In this document: piece by piece, positions 59,220-62,347 of the stretch
Numbering within the stretch: the first letter of the stretch is position 1
How the letters are laid out: each line of letters opens with the position of its first letter
From: Bacteroidia bacterium
GTDB lineage: Bacteria > Bacteroidota > Bacteroidia > B-17B0 > Aurantibacillaceae
Direction of reading: 5' to 3'
Assembly (NCBI GenBank): GCA_016787705.1
Contig: JAEUTP010000004.1
Span: 1-64,000, forward strand
Length of the DNA stretch: 64,000 bases
Position numbers and translations under genes: made by a program
The notes under the pieces: generated by a model
What the model was told of the DNA's origin: nothing
What the model saw: the letters and a program-made list of their open reading frames with translations, nothing else
Databases searched by the model: none

Positions 59220-59271
59220 TTTAAAGTTACAGCGCTATTACGGCAATCAAAGTTATGATTAATAGATTTAA

Positions 59272-59712
59272 TTAATGTAAACTAATAACCCTGGTGATTG
59301 TCCATTTATTATTTTTGTTTCGCCAGATGATCACAAATTTACTTGGCTTGGATGTAGTATCTTTTTCATGGTTGTTGTGAAAAGTGTGCGATCCTAATTC
59401 AACAGCACCATAGCCGGGAATTGGCGATACTTCAATACTTCCTTTTACCAACTCTCGTGTAACTTTGCCGCAAATAAATTTTTTTGTGCCTTCTAGTATT
59501 TCTTTTTTAGAATTACTTAAACCTCCTTTATCATGAAAAAATTCAATACTGTCTGAATAATATTTTTCCTGCGTAGCAATATCGCAAGTGTTGTAAGCAT
59601 GAAAAAATATACTGTCTAATTTTGTAATTGTTTTGTACAGGCTTTCAGACTGAGCTTTAAGTGAAATACCACTTGCTAAAAAAGCTAAAAATAATAAGAA
59701 TTTTTTGTTCAT
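59272..59712 (-). CDS. NTF2-like (DUF4440-type) exported protein
   Basis: 146 residues with signal peptide (MNKKFLLFLAFLASGISLKA, then QS). The body fits the SnoaL/DUF4440 cone fold: FHAYNTCDIATQEKYYSDSI, EFFHDKGGLSNSKKEILEG and FVIIWRNKNNKWTITRVIS. Binding or enzymatic role unknown. The intergenic repeat A lies directly upstream. Confidence 0.75.
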   Translation of the reverse strand: MNKKFLLFLAFLASGISLKAQSESLYKTITKLDSIFFHAYNTCDIATQEKYYSDSIEFFHDKGGLSNSKKEILEGTKKFICGKVTRELVKGSIEVSPIPGYGAVELGSHTFHNNHEKDTTSKPSKFVIIWRNKNNKWTITRVISLH

Positions 59713-59729
59713 GTTTTTTTTGCTTGAAG

Positions 59730-59914
59730 TATAACGTTCCCATGCAATGTGCAGGTTGCTTTGCGAAACACCACCTGTCTAAACCCTTAAACGGTTATAT
59801 GAAGATACAAATGTTTTTTAGTGAGGACAAATGAAAATTAAATTTGCGCCTTAGTAACCACTTTTCCGCACCGCCTGCTTATGTTTATTTGCTTTTAGGC
59901 GGTTGCTGTTTTAC
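59730..59914. repeat. Intergenic repeat A (diverged copy)
   Basis: About 185 bp, between the genes at 59272 and 59911. It shares with copies B and C a left end with TAACG and GCAAT near CAGG, a central GAAGATACAAATGTTT-like block, and a right end with TTGCTGTTTTA. It also holds a 7-bp hairpin (ACCGCCT 59870-59876 and AGGCGGT 59897-59903) and an inverted TATAACG/CGGTTATA pair (59730-59736 and 59792-59799). It overlaps the stop of the upstream gene. Confidence 0.55.
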
Positions 59915-60399
59915 AATGATGTTTTATTAGCGCTGAGTTTTTTTAATATTATTCCTCTTACCTGATAAAATCTTTCAGGGTAATAAAAATGAATTTCGCC
60001 GTCAAATTTCTTTATGAGCTGTAATTCATTTCCGCCAATTAATTTTTTCGTTTTAACCTCCCACGGAATTGTTTCGTATTCCTTTAGTTTAATAGAGTCT
60101 GGGTTTCTTCTGTCTGCAAATTTAAAATACACAGCGTAGCCACCCCTCCATGGGTTTGGCCAATTTCCCAACTCCAATTCAGAAAAATTATTTTTAATCC
60201 GCCCTAAGGTGTCACCTTTTAAAATGTCACGCAGGGTGAAATTAGTAGTATGATTTTTTCGCATATAGTCTCTGATTAGATAAGAAAGCACAACAACGTC
60301 TTTGTTCTCATCTGCTATAGCTCTCATTTTAGCTGTCTGCTCAGCAGTTCTGCAACCTGCACACAGAATCAATAAGAAAGTAATAATTCGAAAAATCAT
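59911..60399 (-). CDS. Small lipoprotein of unknown function
   Basis: 162 residues with signal peptide and a lipobox-like end (LLILCAGCRTAEQ, Cys at residue 16). A charged body follows (DYMRKNHTTNFTLRDILKGD, GGYAVYFKFADRRNPDSIKL). No family is recognised. It lies between intergenic repeats A and B. Confidence 0.65.
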   Translation of the reverse strand: MIFRIITFLLILCAGCRTAEQTAKMRAIADENKDVVVLSYLIRDYMRKNHTTNFTLRDILKGDTLGRIKNNFSELELGNWPNPWRGGYAVYFKFADRRNPDSIKLKEYETIPWEVKTKKLIGGNELQLIKKFDGEIHFYYPERFYQVRGIILKKLSANKTSL

Positions 60400-60452
60400 G
60401 ATTGTTTAATATATTAAATTGTATATCATAACTGTAGCAAATGGTAGTGCGA

Positions 60453-60626
60453 ACTAACGGTTTGCAATCAGGCGCATGCGAGATTATGAAACACTATCTG
60501 CCGAAACGTTAATATAAAGATATGTGTTTATTAGCCTTTTGCAAAATGAAAATAATTGTCAGCGAAGCGACCTTGAATTTGCAAAAGCCTTATTAGTCCG
60601 CCCGCTTGCGCTTGCTTGCTGTCAGT
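60453..60626. repeat. Intergenic repeat B
   Basis: 174 bp with imperfect terminal inverted repeats: left end begins ACTAACGGTTTGCAATCAGG (60453 on), right end is TGCGCTTGCTTGCTGTCAGT (60607-60626). Two internal TTTGCAAAA motifs face each other (60537-60546 and near 60579-60587). It aligns along its length with copy C. Confidence 0.75.
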
Positions 60627-60629
60627 GGC
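60619..60629. repeat. Left member of inverted repeat around the gene at 60636
   Basis: CTGTCAGTGGC, matched by the inverted copy GCCACTAACAG at 61130-61140 (10 of 11 bases). The pair brackets one gene. Confidence 0.6.
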
Positions 60630-60635
60630 AGTTAA

Positions 60636-61118
60636 TTAAGGTCCTATTGCTCTGAGAGTCACTCGATAGGGTGTTGTCCAGTCAAATGAATTGTCGATAG
60701 GAATATTATAACCAAAATTAAGACTAAAATAATAAAAACAGAGTCCGATTTCAGGTGTTATTGTATTACTTGTTATATTATTTATTTTTCTATATGAATA
60801 TTCTAAACTTATGATCGGTCCAACCATTTTTTTGATTGGCTTATAATAGCTTAATAATAATACTGGCGAAATATAAGTTGCCGTCCTTTTTTGAAATTGA
60901 ATTAACCCGCAAATAGAAAACAGTTCTCTCTTTTTTTTAAACCCAATTCTTTGTCCAATTTGAAACAAAAATTCATTTTGATAAACAATTCCAGATGGTC
61001 CATGTTGTGGAGTATATCCAAATTTCCAAGGCACGCCCTTGTCATCTTTGAGGTCCTGTCCCTTGACTATAAAGAAAGTAAAAAGAAATAATATTAAAAG
61101 TCTATGTCTCAGGGTCAT
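60636..61118 (-). CDS. Small exported protein, barrel-like
   Basis: 160 residues with signal peptide (MTLRHRLLILFLFTFFIVKG). The rest shows alternating strands (NEFLFQIGQRIGFKK, FSICGLIQFQKRTATYISPV, GPIISLEYSYRK, IGLCFYYFSLNFGYNIPI), suggesting a small outer membrane barrel. No family is recognised. It sits between intergenic repeats B and C and between the CTGTyAGTGGC inverted pair. Confidence 0.62.
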   Translation of the reverse strand: MTLRHRLLILFLFTFFIVKGQDLKDDKGVPWKFGYTPQHGPSGIVYQNEFLFQIGQRIGFKKKRELFSICGLIQFQKRTATYISPVLLLSYYKPIKKMVGPIISLEYSYRKINNITSNTITPEIGLCFYYFSLNFGYNIPIDNSFDWTTPYRVTLRAIGP

Positions 61119-61129
61119 TTTTTTTAATT

Positions 61130-61140
61130 GCCACTAACAG
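61130..61140. repeat. Right member of inverted repeat around the gene at 60636
   Basis: GCCACTAACAG, inverted copy of 60619-60629. It overlaps the left end of repeat C. Confidence 0.6.
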
Positions 61141-61282
61141 TTTGCAAGCAGGCACAGTAACGAAATGTTTGTTTAAAGATACTAATGTTTGTTGCTTTTG
61201 CAAAAATGAAAAACTTGTCTACTGAAAATTTTTGCAAAAGTTATTACCTCGTCCGCGCAAATTGTGCTTGCTTGCTGTTATA
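61133..61282. repeat. Intergenic repeat C
   Basis: 150 bp with imperfect terminal inverted repeats: left ACTAACAGTTTGCAAGCAGG (61133 on), right TGTGCTTGCTTGCTGTTATA (61263-61282). An inner stem CTTTTGCAAAAA pairs with TTTTTGCAAAAG around a short loop. The unit could form a long cruciform, with a TATCTTTA-like box on the minus strand in the internal bulge. Strong alignment with copy B (about 20 of 24 bases at the left end). Confidence 0.75.
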
Positions 61283-61294
61283 ACCAGTACGGCG
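61277..61294. repeat. Terminal inverted repeat, left, of a 915-bp unit
   Basis: GTTATAACCAGTACGGCG. The inverted partner is at 62174-62191, matching 17 of 18 bases. The pair encloses the YwqK-like gene. Confidence 0.7.
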
Positions 61295-61328
61295 CACCCA
61301 GCTTGCGTTTTGTTTAAGTGCTGTCGAA

Positions 61329-62141
61329 TTAATAATTAATTGTTTTAATAATTTCGTCTTTGTCGTAAAATATTTCTTTTTCTAATTCCCCTGATTTATT
61401 ATAGTACGACCATTTACCAATTTTAAATGCATTTCTATAACCAGCCTTTAATATCGAACGATATTCGTTTTCTGCTTCGTATTGCCCAGTAATTTTAATA
61501 ACTCCGTTATCGTGAAATTCTTTGAATTCGTCAACTAATGAATAATTAAACCAAAATCTATCTTGTAATATTTTACCATTTTCATAGTAAAGAATTTCAT
61601 GCACCTTATTTTCCCAATCAACTTTGTGAGGATCGAACATTTTTTGTCCGTTTTTGTAATATTTTTCAAGGAAAAATAAGTTTAGGCCTTTTTCTTGAAG
61701 TTTTGCTTCTAATTTACCATTGTCATAATACATTAATGTTACACAAGTGTCATTATTGCATTTTCGACTAAGTTTTAACTGTTTATTTTTATGGTATTTC
61801 GTTCCTTCCCAAAGTTCAGCATTGCCGTTCTTTTTGCTATAATAAATTTGTTTTACTTGACCGTTTTCGAACCACTCTCTTATCGTGTCCATTAAACCTT
61901 TGCTGTCACAGTTAAATTCTGAAGCAAGTTTTTTCTTTTTATCGTCGTAGTATATCCTGAATTTTTTATTTTCTTTTTCTTTATTTGAAATTTTGAGAAA
62001 GTAATTTATTTCGGAGGTGTCTTGAAAGGTTTTAAAAACACCAACTTTTGCAGTGTCCGAAATAACGTAGTCAATTGTCTGAGCACTAAGTTGTCCGAGT
62101 GAGAGTAGAAGTAGTATGAAACTGAGCGTTTTTAAATTCAT
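61329..62141 (-). CDS. YwqK/MORN-variant repeat protein, exported
   Basis: 270 residues with signal peptide (LSFILLLLSLGQLSAQ). MORN-variant repeats follow from about residue 70: REWFENGQVKQIYYSKKNG, KYHKNKQLKLSRK, MYYDNGKLEAKL, KYYKNGQKMF, LYYENGKILQ, EFHDNGVIKITGQY and SYYNKSGELEKEIFYD. Such YwqK-family proteins are called antitoxin-like in databases, but no toxin gene is seen here. The gene is enclosed by an 18-bp inverted repeat pair (61277-61294 and 62174-62191). Confidence 0.82.
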   Translation of the reverse strand: MNLKTLSFILLLLSLGQLSAQTIDYVISDTAKVGVFKTFQDTSEINYFLKISNKEKENKKFRIYYDDKKKKLASEFNCDSKGLMDTIREWFENGQVKQIYYSKKNGNAELWEGTKYHKNKQLKLSRKCNNDTCVTLMYYDNGKLEAKLQEKGLNLFFLEKYYKNGQKMFDPHKVDWENKVHEILYYENGKILQDRFWFNYSLVDEFKEFHDNGVIKITGQYEAENEYRSILKAGYRNAFKIGKWSYYNKSGELEKEIFYDKDEIIKTINY

Positions 62142-62173
62142 TTAAAATGTTTTTGTCTACCGAAATGTTTGTC

Positions 62174-62191
62174 CGCCGTATTGGTTATAAC
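62174..62191. repeat. Terminal inverted repeat, right, of a 915-bp unit
   Basis: CGCCGTATTGGTTATAAC, inverted partner of 61277-61294. Confidence 0.7.
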
Positions 62192-62279
62192 TACCCGCTA
62201 AGCGCCATAAAGCCGCTTCCAAACAATTACAAACGCTTAAAAACGGCTAGCCGGTTTACTTTACCAAATATAATAAATA

Positions 62280-62310
62280 AAAAAGCCTTCTGCATAACAG
62301 AAGGCTTTTT
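62280..62310 (-). terminator. Rho-independent terminator of the PD40 gene
   Basis: A perfect 13-bp stem (62280-62292 with 62298-62310) and a 5-nt loop. Read on the minus strand it is followed by a T-rich tract, 38 bp past the stop of the gene at 62348. Confidence 0.85.
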
Positions 62311-62347
62311 CTTTGGGCTTATGCCTTACGGGGCAAGAGCTAAAGAT

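Follow-up and report, generated by a model that had tools for sequence, protein, structure and literature searches.

Gene cassettes with attC-like sites in a Bacteroidia genome and a candidate tyrosine recombinase of their own

Genes, repeats and cassettes at the locus

The subject of this analysis is an array of small genes at positions 59,220 to 62,347 of a 64,000-nucleotide stretch, here called the window, of contig JAEUTP010000004.1 from a Bacteroidia bacterium; the genes alternate with related repeats, designated A, B and C, which are considered here as recombination sites of an integron-like gene-cassette system. As stated in a preliminary description of the locus, all genes within 59272-62141 are encoded by the minus strand, with a single gene for each repeat. 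Their products comprise a DUF4440 protein, a lipoprotein-like and a barrel-like protein, both without Pfam match, and a MORN_2/YwqK-like protein, and this gene content is that of ordinary small accessory genes.

Repeats B and C, said to align over most of their length, share 70% identity over 129 bp (E 2e-5) and 87.5% over 24 bp; since this alignment is far above chance and the family to which they belong spans the phylum, both repeats are real. Their inverted ends were found as claimed: in minus-strand orientation, both repeats open with TAACAGC or TGACAGC and close with GCAAAC[TC]GTTAG, the ends of repeat C being TAACAGCAAGCAAGC...GCTTGCAAACTGTTAGTGG. The TTTTGCAAAA motifs noted earlier are present as well, and on the minus strand the copy nearer to the GTT end forms the -33 part of a Bacteroidetes-type promoter motif, TTTG-N19-TATCTTT, in both B and C.

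When the window was searched with a covariance model of the site family described below, sites B and C were the only matches. Repeat A (59730-59914), regarded as a diverged relative, shares by eye the inner promoter block but is not matched by the model even with filters off; its membership of the family is likely but unproven. The window contains two clear cassettes and a probable, decayed third (Table 1). Cassette ends were compared using the 8 nt past GTTA at the start of a unit and the 8 nt ahead of TAAC at its end: the start of cassette 1 is complementary to its own end at 7 of 8 positions and to the neighbouring end across site C at 3 of 8, and for cassette 2 the corresponding values are 7/8 and, across site B, 2/8. 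A terminator-like hairpin, AAAAAGCCTTCTGCATAACAGAAGGCTTTTT, at 62280-62310 of the window bounds the array on its upstream side.

Table 1. Positions of the sites, cassettes and promoter-like motifs in the window, of the recombinase gene of the same genome and of related plasmid junctions; the vertical bar marks the junction.
Feature	Location	Strand	Details
attC-like site C	61124..61287	minus	covariance model E 1.4e-13; layout TAACAGC stem ... stem' GC-AAACT-G|TTAGTGG; crossover G = 61138
Promoter-like motif in site C	61174..61204	minus	TTTG-N19-TATCTTTA, toward cassette 2
attC-like site B	60444..60631	minus	covariance model E 5e-9; crossover G = 60458
Promoter-like motif in site B	60515..60545	minus	TTTG-N19-TATCTTTA, toward cassette 3
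Repeat A, probable decayed site	59735..59913	minus	AAAACAGC ... GGGAACG|TTATAC; inner promoter block shared by eye
Cassette 1	61138..62190	minus	TTATAACC... up to G of site C; YwqK/MORN-like gene 61329-62141
Cassette 2	60458..61137	minus	TTAGTGGCAATT... up to G of site B; 160-aa outer-membrane-barrel-like gene 60636-61118
Probable cassette 3	59735..60457	minus	opens at G|TTAGTT in site B; gene 59911-60399, lipoprotein-like; decayed site at the tail
Tyrosine recombinase gene, same genome	contig C3, 19607-20722	minus	
tpnF/xerD and tet(X3)	L308/L309 5019-7040 (FJ012881.1, NZ_CP041297.1)		junction ...TATAGCCACTTG|TTATGTGCC
blaVEB-3 behind truncated relative	L311 5133-6754 (NZ_CP084417.1), L313-L315		join GGGAG|TTAGCGG

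The site family and the cassette as a moving unit

A BLAST search of the own genome with repeat C returned chiefly promoter-like fragments, and the site family emerged afterwards by pattern and covariance searches. The pattern searches added copies from the own genome as well as from nine named metagenome-assembled genomes (MAGs), nearly all from Bacteroidota and one labelled Sphingomonadales, often close to contig ends. Structural alignment of 19 site copies revealed two helices separated by an unpaired 1 x 5 spacer, one formed by TAAC/GTTA and the other a stem of 13 bp in which most of the sequence differs between copies while pairing is retained: 88.9% of the cells are paired as compared to 22-33% when the alignment is slid, 11 of the 17 pairs show two-sided, compensated changes, and the covariation score is 0.397 as compared to 0.129 for shuffles and at most 0.092 for slid versions. 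Alignment position 22/207 is mostly mismatched. As is characteristic of attC, the family is conserved by structure more than by sequence, its consensus being CCGCTAAC-A-GC...GC-AAA[AC]C-GTTAGCGGYAAT. The strict core RYYYAAC/GTTRRRY, to which the ends had been said to conform only roughly, indeed does not apply: the TAAC/GTT core is 94-99% conserved and the consensus reads GTTAGCG. Four array loci scanned against Rfam gave no match.

The covariance model detected sites in 52 of 61 genomes of the bacterium's taxonomic family and in 44 of the 47 good ones, in accordance with the expectation of many copies beside different genes. In G008:C1, an array of over 25 sites, all on one strand, spans 1811-1838 kb and reaches the contig end; further arrays are present in G029, G024, G048 and G033. 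Each pair of consecutive sites encloses one unit of median 1045 bp, with the longest open reading frame in site orientation in 113 of 121 units and starting at a median of 58 nt past G|TT. Across 123 units, complementarity between the start and the unit's own end averaged 5.41/8, whereas it was 2.79/8 across the same site and 2.75 (standard deviation 0.10) at random; the own end scored higher than the adjacent one in 105 units and lower in 8 (p=1e-22). Since ends lying about 1 kb apart pair and ends that touch do not, the two ends of a cassette must at some time have been brought together, as they would be in a circle closed at G|TT.

Furthermore, units with exact borders recur in different settings, as would be expected from precise gain and loss. 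One unit, bounded by G|TTAGCGG and G|TTAGC, is 91% identical between loci L095 and L102; the L102 copy is a lone cassette, located at the 3' end of a gene that by eye is glutamine-synthetase-III-like (glnN-like) and adjoined by an attI-like GGTAAG|TTA. In the G008 array, an identical 66-aa cassette occurs twice, the identity starting exactly at G|TTA, and a pair of cassettes that is adjacent in G029 lies 29 kb apart and in opposite order in G024. At the level of sequence, the complementary ends and the shared units show the cassette, a gene plus an attC-like site, to be a circularisable unit. The preliminary description had also considered a family resembling miniature inverted-repeat transposable elements. 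Such elements, or palindromic transposable repeats spreading between genes, would account for the inverted ends, the variable middles and the numerous copies. We regard this as highly improbable, as the repeats are arranged in order on one strand, each with a single gene, a cassette start pairs with the far end of its own unit and not with the adjacent repeat end, and what the genomes have in common is a gene plus a site with G|TT borders, which is the mobile unit.

Promoter-like blocks within the sites could instead suggest that they are conserved regulatory elements, promoters or terminator hairpins, shuffled by homologous recombination. Sites B and C do fold as single strands, which had been proposed as a check, but each is unremarkable alone, with modest z values of -1.4 and -2.0. 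Moreover, the breakpoints fall exactly at G|TT despite little sequence in common between sites, and a recombinase gene and an attI are found at array heads, so that this explanation has as slight a chance of being correct as the transposable repeats. The motif TTTG-N17-23-TANNTTT is present in sense orientation, toward the next gene, in 24 of 125 sites and in antisense in 1, as compared to 1.75 in shuffles. These built-in promoters may be functional, and a promoter directed toward the next cassette would make a captured gene transcribable without a separate array promoter.

Two further observations concern the cassettes. In L223 (4031-8520), adjoining cassettes encode products that are 44% identical, possibly a case of duplication and divergence inside an array. 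Among IMG/VR contigs, 15 filed as viral (L293-L307) carry an exact site and may represent prophage, phage or host DNA.

A tyrosine recombinase and its attI site

A tyrosine recombinase, which the preliminary description had recommended looking for elsewhere, was found: site-bearing genomes, including the one analyzed here (Table 1), encode a protein of about 380 aa related to XerA and IntI, with the domains PF13495 and PF00589 and an N-terminal extension of about 95 aa without Pfam match. Relatives scoring 390 bits or more were assigned to group 1 and those scoring 280-354 bits to group 2. For four group 1 proteins, NF040815 (XerA) was the best NCBIfam match with 207-216 bits at a cut-off of 220, and the XerC/XerD equivalog models TIGR02224 and TIGR02225 gave 173-195 bits, under cut-offs of 330-335. 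The IntI model TIGR02249 scored 196-207 bits with the group 1 proteins scanned, under its cut-off of 265, and its positions of about 180-238 remained unmatched: the IntI insertion of about 40 residues is absent, the spacing from the KDR to the HxLRH motif being 58-59 aa in cassette recombinases and 100 aa in IntI. In the tree, cassette recombinases are placed apart from IntI (support 100) and from the genomes' own XerC/D (Shimodaira-Hasegawa-like approximate likelihood ratio test, SH-aLRT, 100), with group 2 proteins on several branches. An AlphaFold model of moderate quality (predicted local distance difference test, pLDDT, 76; predicted template modelling score, pTM, 0.45) had IntI4 (2A3V) and XerA (5HXY) as best PDB matches, and because it resembles both, the model leaves the kinship of the recombinase undecided.

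The position of the gene links it to the arrays. The covariance model gave 63 matches around 44 recombinase genes and none around 16 XerC/D genes (298 kb). All 35 sites (E<0.01) at group 1 genes are downstream and on the same strand as the recombinase gene; contigs end at a median of 1.7 kb downstream and 27 kb upstream, a difference that would follow from assemblies breaking within variable arrays. At group 2 genes, 17 of 19 sites are on the opposite strand and mostly upstream, a divergent layout which is that of classic integrons. One group 2 recombinase is identical in two different genera (L240 and L241; G029:C2 and G005:C12), which suggests recent transfer. A 294-aa recombinase in G063:C7 was excluded as it looked IS91-associated.

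Most group 1 genes are followed, 93-104 nt past their stop codon, by an attI-like motif, TATAARNWAG|TTA, which is conserved on the left side of the junction and varies on the right side, so that, as in integrons, a G|TT insertion point adjoins the recombinase. The strict motif was detected in 20 of 31 cases vs 0 of 16 controls, and the attI of the own genome scored 32 bits when held out of training. In 11 of 12 cases, the first site and the start of the first cassette are complementary at 6-7 of 8 positions. The start of window cassette 1, TTATAACCAATACGGCGGACAAA, recurs in L223, where it opens the cassette nearest to an attI. By eye, the motif recalls attI1 of class 1 integrons (AAACAAAG|TT, in L313). 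Short inverted repeats, GGTGTCGCAAAATGCGACACC, are located near array heads downstream of the recombinase in L203 and L199, and L199 and L208 have a similar coding stretch that seemingly shifts attI further from the recombinase.

Distribution, resistance genes and relation to known integrons

Within the phylum, sites were detected in 51 of 247 Bacteroidota genomes, representing 29 of 122 genera, and their presence follows that of a close recombinase (18/25 genomes with it vs 33/222 without it; p=5e-9). The arrays might nevertheless be ordinary integron remnants, i.e., clusters of attC sites lacking integron-integrases (CALINs) with classic attC sites and a classic IntI acting in trans. The shared logic of a G|TT junction, hairpin sites and arrays is compatible with this, and the classic attC sites of aadA1 and blaVEB-1 are weakly matched by the site model (17-18 bits, E 0.03-0.04); the two score about equally, so the blaVEB-1 score does not assign that attC to the site family. 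However, IntI above the curated cut-off was found neither in the own genome nor in 11 site-bearing genomes. It is present above the cut-off in 70 of the 247 phylum genomes, only one of which, among the matches listed, is of the same class, and sites and IntI are negatively associated (7/70 vs 44/177; p=0.009). Furthermore, the site model had no match within the 147 kb surrounding 11 true IntI genes, as compared to 25 sites across 9 stretches that surround sites or the cassette recombinase, and G167 carries IntI on one contig and the site family with the cassette recombinase on another. Taken together, we consider a classic remnant improbable.

Several points weigh against a cassette system with its own recombinase at this locus. 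The window array has no adjoining recombinase, the gene of the own genome being on another contig; a candidate attI at the array head of the window was rejected, its left boundary scoring 0.7 bits (rank 27 of 127,936); the strict promoter motif is limited to the 24 of 125 sites given above; the genomes are mostly fragmented MAGs; and 33 of the 222 genomes without a close recombinase nevertheless have sites, which implies that some arrays are fed in trans or by group 2, or are relics. With these points included, we estimate at roughly 90% the probability that the genes and repeats here form a small array of mobile cassettes belonging to a system that operates in the manner of an integron with a distinct recombinase, and the earlier comparison with integron attC arrays that shuffle small genes has thus proved apt. 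Following this, we propose that each cassette consists of one gene and one hairpin-forming attC-like site, that the dedicated recombinase would excise cassettes as circles, presumably acting on the folded single strand, and that the circles would be inserted at G|TTA, either at the recombinase's own attI or at other attC-like sites, where the promoter present in many sites would drive the next cassette.

Relatives of the recombinase also occur on plasmids. The plasmid of Chryseobacterium sp. SNU WT5 (L310 6974-9514) carries the recombinase, one site (E 3e-7) and an attI-like TATAAACAAG, precisely at the junction of which a palindromic insertion (TTGGGAAAAATCG...CGATTTTTCCCAA) is located. On Acinetobacter plasmids, a truncated relative (tpnF/xerD) lies 190 bp ahead of tet(X3), which is followed by a half site, CTACTAACAAGCAG. 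The xerD-tet(X3) layout has been reported (PMC7494873; PMC8635130), and the passages found of those papers do not tie it to a cassette system. Klebsiella and Aeromonas plasmids carry a truncated relative ahead of blaVEB-3, with the join ...TTAGGGAG|TTAGCGGTAATTT. Identity between this blaVEB-3 and the blaVEB-1 cassettes of class 1 integrons opens at the same G|TT, and the identical blaVEB cassette start is found in class 1 integrons behind the aadA1 attC and attI1. This suggests that the blaVEB cassette was exchanged between the cassette system and class 1 integrons, in either direction, and some resistance genes of clinical importance seem to have been carried by the system.

On the broader scale, it is probable, with less confidence than for the locus itself, that these arrays represent a second kind of integron, sister or convergent to that of IntI: a Xer-like recombinase without the IntI domain, with its own attI and attC, Bacteroidota-wide, with promoters in many of its sites, overlooked where searches require the IntI domain or attC of the classic type, and providing genes such as tet(X3) and blaVEB with a path to gammaproteobacterial plasmids. 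No account of such a system was found in the literature, of which few subscription papers and no preprints were covered. Integrons have been described as nearly absent from Bacteroidetes, with earlier only In0 and one complete integron, in Salinibacter ruber (IntegronFinder 2.0, PMC9024848); a platform for cassettes that has a recombinase of its own and sites in 44/47 good genomes of one family and 29/122 sampled genera of the phylum would change this view. It raises the directly testable question of how folded attC sites are processed by a recombinase devoid of the IntI domain, and offers a testable origin for the xerD/tpnF-tet(X3) module.

Among known systems, integrons (IntI/attI/attC) are the closest, especially the sedentary chromosomal ones and those of Spirochaetota with intI in reverse orientation (PMC9668308). 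As in IntI integrons, the recombinase gene is accompanied by an attI whose insertion point is at G|TT, cassettes of one gene each follow one another in long arrays on the same strand and have mutually complementary ends, the attC-like sites form hairpins, and insertion extends to secondary sites. The system differs in a recombinase that lacks the IntI insertion, lies outside IntI in the tree and bears the N-terminal extension, and, from classic attC, in its own site consensus, the unpaired spacer and the promoter in part of the sites. The window array resembles CALINs in having no neighbouring recombinase, whereas its sites are non-classic and the same genome encodes a matching recombinase together with attI and a separate array. 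With XerA, XerC and XerD the recombinase shares the catalytic domain, its best family match being that to XerA, whereas it is distinguished from XerC/XerD by its separate clade and its location at cassette arrays. The system is an integron by function, not an IntI integron by its recombinase.

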